Positions 4,400-13,425 of a DNA stretch of 64,000 nucleotides are shown here, piece by piece. The position numbers and the translations under genes were made by a program. The stretch spans positions 82,734 through 146,733 of the forward strand of contig SVDU01000014.1 in the NCBI GenBank assembly GCA_015057705.1. Reading direction: 5' to 3'. Numbering within the stretch: position 1 is the stretch's first letter; every line of letters starts with the position of its first letter. The stretch is from Paenibacillaceae bacterium (GTDB taxonomy: Bacteria; Bacillota; Clostridia; Lachnospirales; Lachnospiraceae). A model generated the notes under the pieces. The model was not told the origin of the DNA. It worked only from the letters and a program-made list of their open reading frames with translations, and ran no database searches.

Positions 4400-5119
4400 T
4401 TAAAGTTGTGCAAGTGACTGAAGGGCATTCCCCTCAATCAGGACCTCGTAATGTTCCTTGTAGTACGCTTCGGAGGCGTAATCCTGATGAATCTTGGATC
4501 CGTACTCTGCAAGAAGATTGCATACCCGGCTGAAGTCCAGTGACTTCTCAGGGGTGTTACGTATTACCAGATAATACTGTCTGGTATTTGGTTTTTTATA
4601 TAAAGTATTCCTGCCATCATAAACCTGTCCGATGATCTTTGCAGCATCAGAAATTTGATCCAGACTCTGAAAACAGTAGATTCTTACTGAGGAAGCGGTT
4701 GATTGCTCTTTTGGTTTTTCTTCTTCCGGCTCTTCTTTTTTGTCTATTCCCAACAGATTTAACAGACCATCAGCACCTTCTAAAAGCTCACTGGCCAGAT
4801 CTGGAGGCATGGAATCTAAATCCTCGTCTGTTGTTGGTGAAAATTTTGCAAACCTTGTATCTAATTCTTCCGGGTCATCAATTTTAGTGATTACTAACAT
4901 CACGCTTTCGTTGGATAACGGAATTGCTTCTACCATGAGAGGAATGTCTTCTGCTTCAAATCCCACTTCGTTAGAGGCTTTTTGAATCATCTCGCGGAAC
5001 AGGTTGCGGGCTTTTTCACTGCCGTAGGCAAGTTCGCCTAAATTAAGGTTTCGGACGCTTAAATCAAAGCTGGTAAGCGTACAACGGATCTGATTTTCAT
5101 TGATACGTTCTATCTTCAT
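4400..5119 (-). CDS. mecA: Adaptor protein MecA
   Basis: A 239-aa MecA-type adaptor, which in Firmicutes delivers substrate proteins (ComK in Bacillus) to the ClpC ATPase. The N-terminal domain (MKIERINENQIRCTLTSFDL) recognises substrates. An acidic, Lys/Glu-rich linker follows at about residues 120-145. The C-terminal domain (VRIYCFQSLDQISDAAKII) binds ClpC. All three parts and the length fit the family. It is monocistronic, with its own promoter at 5191-5220 and a shared terminator with the convergent hydrolase operon. The substrates in this organism are unknown. Confidence 0.93.
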   Translation of the reverse strand: MKIERINENQIRCTLTSFDLSVRNLNLGELAYGSEKARNLFREMIQKASNEVGFEAEDIPLMVEAIPLSNESVMLVITKIDDPEELDTRFAKFSPTTDEDLDSMPPDLASELLEGADGLLNLLGIDKKEEPEEEKPKEQSTASSVRIYCFQSLDQISDAAKIIGQVYDGRNTLYKKPNTRQYYLVIRNTPEKSLDFSRVCNLLAEYGSKIHQDYASEAYYKEHYEVLIEGNALQSLAQL

Positions 5120-6810: not shown

Positions 6811-6873
6811 AAAAAACTCATGCTCATAGAGTTGTTTCGCCGATATTATAATTTTACGCCTGGTGAACTACAA
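6811..6873 (-). promoter_or_regulatory. Promoter and terminator-like leader hairpin of the small minus-strand gene
   Basis: Minus strand: TTGTAG (6873-6868), 17 bases, TATAAT (6850-6845). Transcription should begin near 6838 and run at once into AACTC / GAGTT (6833-6815) followed by six T's. This may be an attenuator or a very short RNA. Confidence 0.5.
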
Positions 6874-6902: not shown

Positions 6903-6968
6903 TTGAAAAACAAAGAATATTATATTACAATAATCCCCAAGAGATGATATTGAACAGGCACAAGGAGG
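6903..6968 (+). promoter_or_regulatory. Promoter and ribosome site of the kinase gene
   Basis: TTGAAA (6903-6908), 17 bases, TACAAT (6926-6931), so RNA should start near 6938. AAGGAGG follows at 6962-6968. The promoter is divergent from the minus-strand one at 6845-6873. No ATG, GTG or TTG lies 4-12 bases after the AAGGAGG. Confidence 0.6.
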
Positions 6969-8422
6969 TGATTTTAGTAAGCACCGTTCTGTTCGGCAAA
7001 TATCAACTATGCGGTATCTTGGGAACCGGTCGGGAAGGAACAGTTTTTCTGGCGGTTCATCTTGGGCTTGAAGAATACAGGGCAGTGAAACGTGTATCCA
7101 AAAGCTTTCTCAATTATGAACAATTCAGGCGTGAAGCATTGATTTTAAAAGAGTTGCGCCATCCTGGTATTCCCATTTTATACGACGTAGAAGAAGATGA
7201 AAGTTACAGTTATTTAATTGAAGAGTATTTGGAAGGAGATTCCTTATATGATCTTGTAAAAAAACAGGGTCATCTGTCGCGGGAGCTGACCATTTTCTAT
7301 GGAATTCAGCTTGCCAGCATCATTAATTACCTGCATCTCGCAGGAACAACCCCTATATTACATTTAGATTTACAGCCGAAAAACCTGTTATTATGCCATG
7401 ATACCATAAAACTCATTGACTTTGGACTGGCTGCATCGTTAAAAGAAGCAAATAAACCGGGAGAACGTTATGGTACGGTGGGCTGCGCTGCACCGGAACA
7501 ATATGAGGCAGAAGCAGTGCTTGATGAAAGAACAGATATTTATGCCATTGGCACGATCCTCTGTTATCTGTACACTGGGGAATTTCCCAAGCTGCCTTTT
7601 ATACCAGCATCGTCCATGGACCCGGGGCTGGCATCAGTTATCGGGCAATGTATCTGTAAAGAGAAGGAGAACAGGTATTCAACGGCACAGGAGCTTTTGG
7701 ATCAGCTCCGTCAGTTAAAAGAAACGGAAACGGATGCAAAAAAACGTCTGCAATCATCATCTCTTACAATTGCTCTTTCAGGGAGCAAATCTGGGGCAGG
7801 AACAACCCACATTGGAATCGGCCTGTCTGTCTACCTTAAAAATCAAGGAATTCCCAACTTATTGGAAGAAAAACAGGACTCTTTTATGGGTGCCAGTCTT
7901 TTTAAATTCACGAAAGCAAAGCGTGACAGCTATGGTTTGCTGCATTACAGAAACTTAATTATAAAGCCATATTATGGTGCAGGAGTGAAATTAAAGGATC
8001 CACACTTTCGTGTGCACCTGATGGATTGGGGAGAGAATTTAAGCCAGGCGCTTCATATGGTACCTGATGCTGTAATACTGGTGTGTGATGCCAGTATATG
8101 GAACCGGGTTCATGCCTTTGAAGCTGTGGAAGAAGTAATAAGATCCGGCATCCCCTATGCCGTCATATACAATCACTGGGCGTTTGATAAAAAAATCTGT
8201 ATCCCAAAAGGCGCACAGGCATCAGTCTTTTTTCGAGCCCCATTTTTCTCCGATCCATTTATAGTCAGTCATGAACTGGAGACTTTTTATCAGGCTGTAA
8301 CCAGTGAAATCCTGGCGAAAACCCGGGGAGGAGGAAGATGGGATTTACCAGTTATGCGCTGGGGGAAAAAGGTGTTGAATAAATTAAGGATAAAGGAGCG
8401 CTGTCTGTCTGGAAAGGGTTAA
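6944..8422 (+). CDS. Ser/Thr protein kinase fused to a TadZ/CpaE-like P-loop domain
   Basis: Residue numbers follow the 519-aa ORF. The N-terminal half is a Hanks-type kinase with a Gly loop GTGREGTVF, Lys76 (AVKR), Glu91, catalytic HLDLQPKN (Asp169), DFG at 186 and APE at 210, so it looks active. From about residue 300 comes a second domain opening SGSKSGAGTTHIGIG. This resembles the deviant Walker A of TadZ/CpaE/ParA ATPases: the N-side Lys is kept and the usual GKT is GTT. No membrane segment or PASTA repeat is seen. The start is doubtful: the promoter places RNA start near 6938 and AAGGAGG at 6962-6968, but the codons beyond are ATT, TTA, GTA. I list the last ordinary ATG. Next gene 6 bases on. 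Confidence 0.8.
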   Translation: MILNRHKEVILVSTVLFGKYQLCGILGTGREGTVFLAVHLGLEEYRAVKRVSKSFLNYEQFRREALILKELRHPGIPILYDVEEDESYSYLIEEYLEGDSLYDLVKKQGHLSRELTIFYGIQLASIINYLHLAGTTPILHLDLQPKNLLLCHDTIKLIDFGLAASLKEANKPGERYGTVGCAAPEQYEAEAVLDERTDIYAIGTILCYLYTGEFPKLPFIPASSMDPGLASVIGQCICKEKENRYSTAQELLDQLRQLKETETDAKKRLQSSSLTIALSGSKSGAGTTHIGIGLSVYLKNQGIPNLLEEKQDSFMGASLFKFTKAKRDSYGLLHYRNLIIKPYYGAGVKLKDPHFRVHLMDWGENLSQALHMVPDAVILVCDASIWNRVHAFEAVEEVIRSGIPYAVIYNHWAFDKKICIPKGAQASVFFRAPFFSDPFIVSHELETFYQAVTSEILAKTRGGGRWDLPVMRWGKKVLNKLRIKERCLSGKG

Positions 8423-8428
8423 ACTTCT

Positions 8429-9046
8429 ATGAAGAGATTTGCAAAAAGAGGCTGGAAACTGGGTAATCCGTTTGGTAAAGTCCAGACCCCTGAATTAATA
8501 GGTATTATTGGTACCGGAAGAGGGAATGGAGTGACTCATTTTTCAGTGATGACAGCCGGATATTTATCTGGTGTGATGAGAATGCGGTGTGCAGTTTTGG
8601 AGTGGAATCATCATGAGTCCTTTTCGTGTATGGGAGCTTCCTGTTCCAGTGGAAAAAAAGGTGAAAACCCGTTTCGGGTTCTGGAGACAGATTATTTTGG
8701 AAAAGCGGGGATTGATACACTGTTGTTGTGTAAAAAGTCCGGCTATCATGCTGTAATTGTGGATTATGGGACTGCAAAGGAAGGCAATCTGGAAGAGTTT
8801 TTTCGATGCAGCAGGCAATTTGTAATAGGAAGTCTTAGTGAGTGGCAGATTGGTGAGTTTCTGGAATTTGAAAAGAGAGGGATAAAAACGGAAAAAAGCT
8901 GGCACAGCCTTGTATCATTTGGCAGTGAAGATGCAAGAACAAGTCTGGAAAAAAGATTAAAGGTTCCGGTGAGAAGAATTCCCTTTTCCATAGATCCATT
9001 TTCTGTCACTGCTGAGACTATTAGTTTTTACGAACAATTATTTTAA
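8429..9046 (+). CDS. CpaE/ParA-like protein with a degenerate P-loop
   Basis: A 205-aa protein related to the C-terminal half of the preceding kinase. After a basic N-terminus it has IGIIGTGRGNGVTHFSV, which shares the G-x-TH pattern with the kinase's second domain (GAGTTH). The P-loop Lys is Val, and the N-side deviant Lys is Arg, so ATP hydrolysis is doubtful. A Walker-B-like strand HAVIVDYG follows near residue 110. The gene starts 6 bases after the kinase stop and is surely in the same operon. It may be a partner or pseudo-ATPase for the kinase fusion. No Flp/Tad pilus genes are present, so a pilus role is not supported here. Confidence 0.65.
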   Translation: MKRFAKRGWKLGNPFGKVQTPELIGIIGTGRGNGVTHFSVMTAGYLSGVMRMRCAVLEWNHHESFSCMGASCSSGKKGENPFRVLETDYFGKAGIDTLLLCKKSGYHAVIVDYGTAKEGNLEEFFRCSRQFVIGSLSEWQIGEFLEFEKRGIKTEKSWHSLVSFGSEDARTSLEKRLKVPVRRIPFSIDPFSVTAETISFYEQLF

Positions 9047-9080: not shown

Positions 9081-9323
9081 ATGAGTAAAGAAGACAGTGG
9101 TATATGGAAAGAAGGTAAAAGAGACCAGTATCTGGAAGGACTGAAAAGGTACAGAAATAAGGGGGTTCCCATTGTAATTGACGGCGAGGAACTGCCGGAG
9201 ACAGACTGGGGAAGAATATTTGAAATAAGGGAGGATGACAGCTTTTATATGGCAGACTATGTTCCTGATGAGGAGACCGGTAAACTGCAGGAAATCAGAT
9301 TTGACCGTGTCTACAACCGGTAA
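9081..9323 (+). CDS. Small acidic protein, DUF6061-like (80 aa)
   Basis: An 80-aa protein with no signal peptide or membrane segment. It has the pattern RNKGVPIVIDGEELPETDW followed by REDDSFYMADYV and EIRFDRVYN. I associate this with a small Firmicutes family of unknown function (DUF6061, from memory and not certain). The start at 9081 has GGGGAG 9 bases upstream. It follows the kinase/P-loop pair by 34 bases and probably shares their transcript. The 200 bases after it hold no convincing gene until the promoter of the SH3-GH18 gene. Confidence 0.65.
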   Translation: MSKEDSGIWKEGKRDQYLEGLKRYRNKGVPIVIDGEELPETDWGRIFEIREDDSFYMADYVPDEETGKLQEIRFDRVYNR

Positions 9324-9525: not shown

Positions 9526-11187
9526 ATGAAGAGGAAAGCAGTGCCGGTTATGGTGGCGCTGGGATTGATTTTGCTGGTTCTGGCCGGTTCTTTCGGAATC
9601 CGGGTTTTAGAACGGTATATTCCATCCAGTGAGCAGGCAGATTTGACTGAGATTTTTGGGGTCACAGGGGATGAGGTGGCAGTTTTTTTTAATGAGAATC
9701 TTCAGGAAACCAAAGGTCTTTTTGCAGAGGATCAGACCTACCTACCCATCAGTTGGATTAATGAAAATTTAAATGAGCGTTTTTACTGGGATAGTAATGA
9801 GAAGCTCCTTGTGTATACACTTCCGGATTCCATTGTTTATGCAGACCAGAATACAAAAGGTTCTTCCGGAAAATCACTGATTCTGGAGAAAGGGGATACT
9901 GTGTATTTATCCCTGGGCCTTATTGCTAACTATACAGATGCTGAGTTTACTGCCTATGATTCAGCTGTAAATAAGCGGGTGTTTATCAATAATAACTGGA
10001 CAGATAAAGAACGGGCTACAGTTGTTAAAGACGGTAACGTGCGTATCAAAGGCGGAGTCAGGAGCCCAATTGCAACTCATGTGAATGAGGGGAGCAAAGT
10101 GACGGTACTGGATTCCATGGACAAATGGGATAAAATCAGGACAGAGGACGGTTTTATTGGCTATGTAGAACGCCGACGCCTTGGAGAAACACAAAAAGAG
10201 GCTTCCGTAAGTACTTTTATAAAGCCGGTTTATAAAAATATAACCATGGATCAGCCGGTTTGCCTGGTATGGCATCAGGTTACCACGGCAGAGGGAAATT
10301 CTACCTTTGACAGTCTGATTGCCAATACCTCAGGGGTTAACGTGATTTCTCCAACATGGTACGAATTAAGTGATAATGAAGGTGGTTTTCATTCCCTGGC
10401 AGATGCGGGGTATGTAAAAAAGGCTCACGACAAAGGATTAAAGGTCTGGGCACTGATTAATAACTTTAGTTCCGATGTGAATACGGAGATTCTGATGTCT
10501 AAAACATCAACAAGGAAGAAGCTGATCGATGCTTTGATGGCAGAGGCAAAGACCTATGGATTTGACGGCATTAATCTGGACTTTGAAGGCATAAAAGAGG
10601 AAGCGGGTCCCCATTACATTCAGTTTATCAGAGAGCTGTCCATCCCATGCAGAGAGAAGGGGCTTGTTCTGTCCGTGGATAATTACGTGCCCGTTGCAGG
10701 AAATGAGTTTTATAACCGGAAGGAGCAGGGGATCGTAGCTGATTATGTGATCATTATGGGTTACGATGAACATTATGCAGGCGGAGAGGCCGGATCTGTG
10801 TCTTCTATTCAATATGTAGAAGATGGAATTAAGAATACGCTTAAAGTTGTTCCCAAGGAAAAAGTTATTAATGGTATTCCTTTTTACACCAGAATATGGA
10901 CGGAAGGAACAGATGGAAAGACTTCATCCTCTGCCATTGGTATCGCAAAATCCAAAGAATGGGTTACGAAAAATGATATGAAACTGTACTGGCAGGAAGA
11001 GTTGGGACAGTATTACGGAGAACTTCAGACAGAAGAAGGCAAAAAGACCGTATGGCTTGAGGAAGAACGTTCCATCGGTCTGAAGATGAACTTGATCCGT
11101 CAGTACGATCTGGCAGGTGTGGCATGCTGGAAGCTGGGGTTTGAGCCGGCTGATTTGTGGGATGAAGTACGGCTTGACAAGGAATAA
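9526..11187 (+). CDS. Membrane-anchored SH3 / GH18-family glycosyl hydrolase
   Basis: A 553-aa exported protein. Residues 7-25 form an uncleaved signal anchor (VMVALGLILLVLAGSFGI). Residues of about 45-160 resemble a copper-amine-oxidase-N-like (stalk) domain, about 165-220 are a bacterial SH3 domain (RIKGGVRSPIATHVNEGSKV), and about 240-550 form a glycosyl-hydrolase-18 barrel. The barrel keeps FDGINLDFEGI, matching the DxxDxDxE signature with its catalytic Glu. Such proteins (YaaH- or YdhD-like) cut N-acetylglucosamine links in peptidoglycan, often around sporulation. It starts an envelope group with the phosphoesterase lipoprotein and amidase that follow. Confidence 0.88.
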   Translation: MKRKAVPVMVALGLILLVLAGSFGIRVLERYIPSSEQADLTEIFGVTGDEVAVFFNENLQETKGLFAEDQTYLPISWINENLNERFYWDSNEKLLVYTLPDSIVYADQNTKGSSGKSLILEKGDTVYLSLGLIANYTDAEFTAYDSAVNKRVFINNNWTDKERATVVKDGNVRIKGGVRSPIATHVNEGSKVTVLDSMDKWDKIRTEDGFIGYVERRRLGETQKEASVSTFIKPVYKNITMDQPVCLVWHQVTTAEGNSTFDSLIANTSGVNVISPTWYELSDNEGGFHSLADAGYVKKAHDKGLKVWALINNFSSDVNTEILMSKTSTRKKLIDALMAEAKTYGFDGINLDFEGIKEEAGPHYIQFIRELSIPCREKGLVLSVDNYVPVAGNEFYNRKEQGIVADYVIIMGYDEHYAGGEAGSVSSIQYVEDGIKNTLKVVPKEKVINGIPFYTRIWTEGTDGKTSSSAIGIAKSKEWVTKNDMKLYWQEELGQYYGELQTEEGKKTVWLEEERSIGLKMNLIRQYDLAGVACWKLGFEPADLWDEVRLDKE

Positions 11188-11219: not shown

Positions 11220-12647
11220 ATGAGAAAGAGGGTATTATTGGCAGCATTGGCGGCTGCAGTTTGTGTAACTTCAGGCTGCTCTTTTAAAAAAGGAGCACAG
11301 GAACTTACGCAGGAAGAGAGTACGGCACAGCCGGAGACAACCGTTACACAAGTACAGACACCTTCCACAGCACAGGTCCCTGAAACCTCCGGGGAGTCTT
11401 CCCCAGAACAACCCCAGGCACTTGAGGAAGGAGCCGCCAGGATAATAATAGCTACAGATATTCATTATCTGGCCAGAGATTTAACCGATATGCAGATGAG
11501 CTATGAATATACGGCTGATCACGGAGATGGCAAAGTAATGAAATATATCTGGGAAATTACAGATGCGTTCATTGAAGAAGTGAAAGCAGAAAAACCGGAT
11601 CTGGTAATATTAGAGGGTGATTTAACTTATAACGGAGAGCGGGATAGCCATATAGAACTTGCCAGTAAACTGGAGGCCATAGAAGAAGCGGGAATTCCTG
11701 TAATCGTTATTCCTGGAAACCATGATATTAATAATCCTGATGCGTGTCGGTTTGAGGGAGAGTCCATAGTTAGTACGGAAAGTATTACACCAGAAGAATT
11801 TGAAGAGATATATGACGAATTCGGATATAGTGAAGCGGTGAGCCGGGACCCGGCGTCCCTAAGCTATGTATACCAGATCAATGATAAAACCAGAGCTCTG
11901 ATGCTTGACAGCTGCCAGTATAATCCAAAGAACCTGGTGGGCGGCATGATAAAAGATGATACATACACCTGGATTGAGGAGCAGATGGAAGAGGCATGGA
12001 ATCTGGGGATGAAAGTGATTCCTGTGGCCCATCACAATTTGCTTGATGAAAGTGAAGTTTATCTTCAGGATTGTACCATTGAGCATAGTGAACAGCTCAT
12101 TGATCAGCTGGAGAGCTGGGAAGTTCCTTTATTTTTAAGCGGACATCTTCATGTTCAGCATTATAAGAGATCCCATGGCGATTCTGGAATTTATGAAATA
12201 GTGACAGGCTCTTTGTCTACCCCTCCATGTTTGTACGGAATATTGGAGTATGGTCCGAAAGGAACCTTTAACTACCATACGAAATCTCTTGATATGAAAG
12301 CCTGGGCGGAGAAAACAGGTAATAAGGACAAGAATCTTTTGAATTTCAGTAATTATGGTAAAAAATATTTGAGTAAAGTTTTTTATAATCAGGCTCAGGA
12401 TGAGTTTAATAGCTTAAATACCCTTCAGGGTCTGACTGAAAGTCAGCGGGATATGATGGCTAAGGTATATGCAGAACTGAATTCTGCGTGTTATGAAGGT
12501 AAAGTAGCGGATATTCGTGAGAAGGTCATGGCAAAAAAGGGATATAAATTGTGGCAGGAAGAGGGGTATCCCAGTATTTTATCCCAGTATCTGGAGTGGA
12601 TCACTGCAGATGGCGGCAGAGATTATAACACATTAAGCGTTAAATAA
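11220..12647 (+). CDS. Metallophosphoesterase lipoprotein
   Basis: A 475-aa exported lipoprotein: signal peptide with the lipobox VTSGC ending at Cys20, then a Thr/Glu/Pro-rich linker to about residue 75. The calcineurin-like core shows all five metal motifs in order: ATDIHYL, EGDLTYNG, PGNHDIN, VAHHNL and SGHLHVQ. It should hydrolyse a phosphoester outside the membrane; the substrate is unknown. About 140 C-terminal residues after the core are helical and not recognised. It sits 32 bases after the GH18 gene and is likely co-transcribed with it. Confidence 0.88.
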   Translation: MRKRVLLAALAAAVCVTSGCSFKKGAQELTQEESTAQPETTVTQVQTPSTAQVPETSGESSPEQPQALEEGAARIIIATDIHYLARDLTDMQMSYEYTADHGDGKVMKYIWEITDAFIEEVKAEKPDLVILEGDLTYNGERDSHIELASKLEAIEEAGIPVIVIPGNHDINNPDACRFEGESIVSTESITPEEFEEIYDEFGYSEAVSRDPASLSYVYQINDKTRALMLDSCQYNPKNLVGGMIKDDTYTWIEEQMEEAWNLGMKVIPVAHHNLLDESEVYLQDCTIEHSEQLIDQLESWEVPLFLSGHLHVQHYKRSHGDSGIYEIVTGSLSTPPCLYGILEYGPKGTFNYHTKSLDMKAWAEKTGNKDKNLLNFSNYGKKYLSKVFYNQAQDEFNSLNTLQGLTESQRDMMAKVYAELNSACYEGKVADIREKVMAKKGYKLWQEEGYPSILSQYLEWITADGGRDYNTLSVK

Positions 12648-12708: not shown

Positions 12709-13425
12709 GTGAATCGGGTAAAGAGCGTGAAATTAAAAAAATGGGAACCGTTCATGGCGGTGATTTTGCTGATATTGGTTTATGTTATATCGAGCCAGGC
12801 GGGAAAGATGGCAGCAGTAAATAACGCCCCATCTGCACAAAAGAATCGGCCGGTGGTAGTAATTGATGCTGGCCACGGGGGGAATGACCCTGGAAAGATC
12901 GGGATTGACGGTACTCTGGAAAAAGATATTAATCTGAAGATTGCCATGAAACTGAAAAAGTATCTGGAAGCATCGGATGTGGATGTTGTTCTTACCAGAG
13001 ATGATGACAATGGACTCTACTCAGCCAGAGACAACAGAAAAAAGATGGCGGATATGACCAAACGGTGTGATGTTATCAATAAAACCAAGCCTGCATTGAC
13101 TGTAAGCATCCATCAAAACAGTTATCATCAGGAAGAAATCTCCGGAGGACAGGTGTTTTATTATAAAAAGTCAGAAAAAGGGAAAAAGCTTGCTGAAACC
13201 ATACAGGAACGGTTCGATTTTTTATTGGGAGATAAGAATACAAGACTTGCAAAACCCAATGATAATTATTACCTGTTGCTTCACGTGAGGACACCGATTG
13301 TAATCATTGAATGCGGATTCTTAACCAATAGCAGGGAATCAAAGCTTTTGAATAATGAAGATTATCAGGACCGGGTAGCGTGGACCATACATATGGGAAT
13401 CATGAGCTATTTAAATAATAATTAA
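12709..13425 (+). CDS. N-acetylmuramoyl-L-alanine amidase (Amidase_3), membrane-anchored
   Basis: A 238-aa cell-wall hydrolase that cuts the amide between MurNAc and the stem peptide. The N-terminus carries one hydrophobic segment (FMAVILLILVYVIS). The Amidase_3 domain has the zinc ligands in DAGHGG, the Glu of GTLEKDINL and the His of VSIHQNSYH. The catalytic Glu is in IIECGFLTN, so it looks active. There is no binding repeat or CwlD-specific extension, but its size and anchor resemble the sporulation amidase CwlD. The start is uncertain: GTG at 12709 lacks a strong ribosome site and an in-frame GTG at 12727 is an alternative. Confidence 0.85.
   Translation: MNRVKSVKLKKWEPFMAVILLILVYVISSQAGKMAAVNNAPSAQKNRPVVVIDAGHGGNDPGKIGIDGTLEKDINLKIAMKLKKYLEASDVDVVLTRDDDNGLYSARDNRKKMADMTKRCDVINKTKPALTVSIHQNSYHQEEISGGQVFYYKKSEKGKKLAETIQERFDFLLGDKNTRLAKPNDNYYLLLHVRTPIVIIECGFLTNSRESKLLNNEDYQDRVAWTIHMGIMSYLNNN

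Follow-up and report, generated by a model that had tools for sequence, protein, structure and literature searches.

A Ser/Thr kinase fused to a SIMIBI-class domain, and its stand-alone partner, as a possible TadZ-like scaffold in Lachnospiraceae

Why should a Ser/Thr kinase be fused to a ParA-like domain whose P-loop has lost its lysine, and be followed at once by a second gene for such a domain? The 64,000-nucleotide stretch analyzed here (the window) raises this question through two adjacent genes, K and P. A preliminary description made from the letters of the sequence reported a kinase-fusion gene and a separate partner gene, and we recovered both where it had placed them. Gene order around them is nearly constant: a divergent MecA gene, then K-P-(SAF/CpaB-like)-(S)-GH18-(phosphoesterase)-amidase. 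The features of the window are as follows.

4400..5119, minus strand: MecA, divergent, the other edge of the kept site (PF05389, 1.3e-67); near K in 34 of 38 family-sample loci
6903..6931, plus strand: candidate promoter upstream of K, TTGAAA-17-TACAAT; a consensus match only, in a region kept in relatives
6944..8422, plus strand: K, 492 aa, Ser/Thr kinase with a fused ParA/TadZ-like domain of the SIMIBI class; AlphaFold pLDDT 84.9
7001..7738, plus strand: kinase domain of K, residues 20-265; Lys49, Glu64, Asp142, Asn147 and Asp159 kept
7763..8323, plus strand: C-terminal SIMIBI-like domain of K, residues 274-460; its strands and helices follow one another as they do in P
7781..7810, plus strand: degenerate P-loop of K, GSKSGAGTTH, residues 280-289
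8429..9046, plus strand: P, a 205-aa stand-alone protein of the SIMIBI class, starting 7 bases past K; AlphaFold pLDDT 87.6
8510..8539, plus strand: degenerate P-loop of P, GTGRGNGVTH, residues 28-37
9081..9323, plus strand: S, the next gene after P, an 80-aa protein without assigned function (protein clusters 5 and 6); no Pfam or NCBIfam match
9526..11187, plus strand: SH3 + GH18 protein (PF00704, 2.6e-26); at most 4.5 kb from K in 36 of 38 family-sample loci
11220..12647, plus strand: calcineurin-like phosphoesterase, by profile match
12709..13425, plus strand: N-acetylmuramoyl-L-alanine amidase (PF01520, 3.9e-49)

K matches the protein kinase family (PF00069, 4e-39), and the structural neighbors of its kinase domain found by Foldseek are AMPK, Aurora and PknB, including PknB of S. 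aureus. Alignment of 65 relatives, Pfam and Foldseek together identify a Hanks-type kinase, with the kinase fold and the Lys, αC Glu, catalytic Asp, Asn and DFG Asp all in place. The preliminary description had called this kinase complete and named Lys76 and Asp169; the residues are there, although that numbering starts from a GTG at 6863 and becomes Lys49 and Asp142 when counted from 6944. "Complete" needs qualifying, however: the catalytic loop reads (H/Y)LDLQPxN, with Leu in place of the HRD Arg and the catalytic-loop Lys replaced by an invariant Gln144, and 46 of the 65 aligned relatives carry DFD instead of DFG. The kinase is likely active. The model for PrkC/PknB PASTA kinases, NF033483, matches residues 14-215 (1.5e-38) at 133 bits, far under its equivalog cut-off of at least 450, and K contains no PASTA repeats.

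The putative start of K at 6944 lies about 13 bases past the promoter-like TACAAT. A TTG at 6950 is kept in relatives and lies upstream of a strong Shine-Dalgarno sequence (about 6962-6970), itself kept (AAGGAGGTG, window 6962-6980); no ordinary start codon follows it at the usual spacing in the eight relatives read. Position 6944 is one candidate, and K may use a nonstandard start.

Because no Pfam or NCBIfam model matches P or the C-terminal domain of K, their assignment to the SIMIBI class rests on profiles and structure. Comparison of the two by hhalign (profiles from 34 and 36 sequences) gave a probability of 99.8% across the whole domain, which at the level of sequence profiles makes them homologous. 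The predicted structure of P matched FlhG (Foldseek, 1.6e-6) and also ParA, MinD, BcsQ and HypB, all of the SIMIBI class, and we assign P a SIMIBI/MinD-ParA fold on the strength of this model. The SIMIBI/ParA fold proposed in the preliminary description, for which it named structure prediction as the check, is thereby borne out for P directly and for K through homology. The window belongs to a Lachnospiraceae genome that resembles Lacrimispora: the named relatives closest to P, mostly from Lacrimispora and Hungatella records, share 79-96% identity with it.

The shared G-x-TH motif also held up: it is a genuine family signature, because Thr-His after the Walker lysine position is invariant in the 65 sequences of K and the 59 of P that were scored. 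The lysine position itself is occupied by T, A, V or C, once by M, and never by K. Asp-x-Gly at the Walker-B position is likewise invariant in both sets (the Asp is D112 in P and D361 in K), and a switch-like Glu after strand 2 is nearly so. This pattern of conservation argues that the site is under maintenance rather than in plain decay. A MinD-like membrane-targeting tail in K found no support: the C-terminal tails are basic, averaging a net charge of +4.3, and their hydrophobic moment is not above that of shuffled sequences (median p 0.30).

Which SIMIBI family lies closest? With profiles of comparable size, P matched TadZ at 95.7-97.2% over 136-179 columns, Soj at 91% over 47 columns covering only the P-loop, and MinD at 25%; unrelated neighbor families gave approximately 0. 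By profile, then, TadZ is the nearest to P of the families compared, with Soj and MinD further off. The C-terminal domain of K is equivocal: five subsamples gave 17-86% for TadZ, and Soj reached 82%, confined to the P-loop region. Foldseek places FlhG, ParA and MinD ahead of any TadZ for P and so favors structures of the MinD type; the 50 listed matches contain no TadZ structure. Searched against PDB sequences, the P profile found SRP54, Soj and BcsQ and not 3fkq, the TadZ of Eubacterium rectale, and the C-terminal domain of K found no useful match. The TadZ encoded in a Tad locus of the same genome (L063:10437-11438) does match 3fkq (E 0.0014). Its P-loop region reads SPVNRCLKTS and retains the lysine, so the motif, which had been offered as an argument for TadZ kinship, does not serve as one; GxTH is a separate signature. 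The kinship itself is supported by profile for P and equivocal for K. Neither protein is a TadZ in the strict sense, since both lack a receiver domain, their operon contains no Tad genes, and their P-loop is unlike that of their own genome's TadZ.

K-P occupies a single chromosomal site in dozens of genera of Lachnospiraceae, relatives of Clostridium from gut and soil. Single-query searches, whose counts are lower bounds, found the K domain in at least 30 and P-like domains in at least 53 of 200 genus-level Lachnospiraceae genomes. K-P is under purifying selection (omega 0.12-0.28), and a common history links K, P, MecA and GH18 (Spearman 0.78-0.87; 0.87 for MecA, 0.79 for GH18); on these sequence comparisons, K-P is inherited vertically. 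Some genera (L094, L260-L263) have a kinase with a single SIMIBI domain, so a K-P heterodimer would not be universal.

As the preliminary description noted, the locus itself contains no pilus genes, and the CpaF gene of this genome lies on a different contig from K-P. It also suggested looking for linked Tad genes in relatives, and genes of Tad type are present there. Ten chromosomal K loci, though not the operon of this genome, include a SAF/CpaB-like gene whose product scores 27.7 against PF08666 (cut-off 21) and matches CpaB TIGR03177 below its cut-off (1.6e-6). Relatives on mobile (conjugative) elements combine an extra N-terminal domain with the SIMIBI domain shared with K-P (PP profile, 1e-32 to 3e-39); the extra domain compares at 11% by hhalign with the TadZ N-terminal receiver domain and is not clearly its counterpart. 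Relatives in L258, a conjugative element, and L259, a chromosomal cluster, adjoin SAF/CpaB-like proteins (8e-44 and 2e-40) and T2SSE/PilT/TadA-like ATPases, and a Paenibacillus plasmid relative lies near a T2SS/T4P-type ATPase. One chain (L259:6636-9326) contains two SIMIBI-like stretches, which suggests that SIMIBI domains of this kind work in pairs.

In the clusters L258:7993-14004 and L259:1731-9326, several SIMIBI proteins in tandem are encoded together with a SAF/CpaB-like protein and a T2SSE-like ATPase of large size; the L258 cluster lies downstream of conjugation genes. They are possibly an undescribed Tad-like system. Elsewhere, inside conjugation operons (L102:9275-10390 and L257:8807-9937), a P-like domain carries an extra N-terminal domain, and in L102 the next genes are AbiEii-like and a Tn916-type integrase.

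CpaF is present in 193 of 200 Lachnospiraceae genomes, so co-occurrence of K-P with Tad is not informative. In 14 genera without K-P (L183-L196), MecA and S-GH18-amidase are followed, after several genes, by TadZ-CpaF-TadB-TadC-DUF5702, with 6-9 kb between the K-P site and the Tad locus. This adjacency is suggestive, but by size and position the intervening genes resemble the housekeeping genes for TsaC, Upp and dCMP deaminase, and it probably reflects chromosomal neighborhood. Genuine Tad TadZ proteins deviate from GK[ST] at the P-loop (LKT, LQT, GTS or lost) in 45 of 71 Lachnospiraceae genomes. An initial comparison of 21 versus 14 genomes looked convincing for K-P driving this decay, with controls that had been picked for Tad adjacency; once random genomes without K-P were added, intact P-loops numbered 10 of 34 versus 16 of 37 (p = 0.32), and we dropped the idea. 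Decay of the TadZ P-loop is thus common in Lachnospiraceae and independent of K-P.

Our preferred reading, to which we assign a probability of roughly 0.5, is that K-P is a kinase-bearing, hydrolysis-dead TadZ-like scaffold at a Tad-type envelope assembly; it looks like an offshoot of a Tad-pilus positioning component that now carries a signaling kinase. K and P would form a resident module of two proteins whose building blocks are TadZ-like domains of the ParA/MinD fold, the kinase occupying the place of the receiver-like domain of TadZ/CpaE. The SIMIBI domains of K and P would probably pair as ParA/MinD domains do, as is suggested by the constant adjacency of the two genes and by the double-stretch chain of L259. 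With the P-loop lysine gone, these domains could not run a normal ATPase cycle and would instead act as a fixed scaffold, carrying the kinase to a Tad-type envelope assembly (represented in some genera by a SAF protein like CpaB, and in nearly all by cell-wall enzymes nearby), where it would phosphorylate a partner co-assembled at that site. The preliminary description had the kinase placed by, or controlling, a polar or membrane assembly, a link that we, too, infer.

A tentative alternative keeps the scaffold and drops the pilus: K-P may be a signaling-and-positioning module apart from Tad, its kinase docked on a permanent, ATP-hydrolysis-dead TadZ/MinD-like heterodimer that marks an envelope site in Lachnospiraceae. 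If so, pseudo-ParA domains can be stable kinase scaffolds rather than dynamic positioning ATPases.

We consider it unlikely that K-P regulates the adjacent cell-wall enzymes (GH18 and amidase) with no relation to Tad-type machinery, its TadZ-like domains merely dimerizing. The peptidoglycan hydrolases pointed out in the preliminary description are real neighbors at a kept site: GH18 and MecA accompany K in nearly all family-sample loci, and the genes from K to the phosphoesterase and amidase lie on one strand in fixed order. However, S-GH18-amidase occupies the same site without K-P in many genera (S80 profile matches in loci lacking K-P), and GH18 is found in 180 of 200 genomes whether K-P is present or absent; these enzymes do not need K-P. 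In addition, a gap of 200 bases separates S from the GH18 gene, and mobile relatives of the domain keep Tad-type company, not hydrolases.

That the GxTH P-loop still binds and hydrolyzes nucleotide, making K-P a normal pair of the ParA/MinD type that positions by oscillation or gradient and has a kinase attached, seems to us improbable. In its favor, three residues are invariant or nearly so (the Thr that ligates Mg, the Walker-B-like Asp and the switch-like Glu) and therefore indicate a site under selection, not one that has simply decayed. Against this, the lysine is missing from every K and P sequence, and we know of no catalytic precedent in the SIMIBI fold for a His after the P-loop Thr.

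SH3-bearing GH18 proteins such as the neighbor of K-P resemble spore cortex-lytic enzymes, and most K-P genomes encode SpoIVA, yet we rejected a sporulation or germination module as highly improbable: K occurs without a SpoIVA match in six genomes that are at least 91% complete (G049, G110, G139, G153, G185 and G197), and in at least 30 of 200 genomes versus 135 for SpoIVA. An anti-phage defense kinase is scarcely credible, since the matches of K to the PADLOC models PD-T4-6 (2e-44) and mad6 (1e-44) amount essentially to the kinase domain, which every Hanks kinase has, and its fixed, vertically inherited site lies beside housekeeping genes with no defense genes seen nearby.

A kinase on TadZ-like domains would tie Ser/Thr signaling to envelope or pilus-type assembly in Lachnospiraceae, which are dominant gut bacteria and in which, to our knowledge, control of Tad genes has been little studied. 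K-P would also offer a clear example from nature of ParA-fold proteins that have lost their ATPase chemistry and yet stay under strict sequence constraint. We found no account of a kinase-SIMIBI fusion in the open-access literature searched, our coverage of which was incomplete.

Set beside known systems, K shares its kinase domain with PrkC and PknB and differs from them in lacking PASTA repeats, in its LDLQPxN catalytic loop and in its SIMIBI tail. MinD, FlhG and BcsQ resemble P in fold, but they keep the P-loop lysine and hydrolyze ATP; the deviant Walker A motif KGGxGK[ST] of MinD, ParA and FlhG is in neither K nor P, and K-P has no convincing counterpart of the MinD membrane-targeting helix. 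Type VII secretion variant f likewise uses a TadZ-like module outside a Tad locus in Bacillota, the protein TsfV; it differs in having the receiver domain of TadZ along with an AAA+ ATPase, and T7SSf has no linked kinase, whereas kinases are common in T7SS variants, others of which adjoin Tad genes (PMC11217815). Among the genes annotated beside K-P we noticed neither an EssC-type ATPase nor a WXG100 gene. TadZ/CpaE itself differs in its receiver-like N-terminal domain, which is replaced by a kinase in K and by nothing in P; K-P also carries the GxTH signature and lies outside any Tad operon (CpaF, TadB, TadC), in a genome whose ordinary TadZ sits in a separate Tad locus. What K-P has in common with TadZ/CpaE is a SIMIBI/ParA-like domain with an atypical P-loop, in both K and P, and relatives that adjoin CpaB-like and TadA-like genes.
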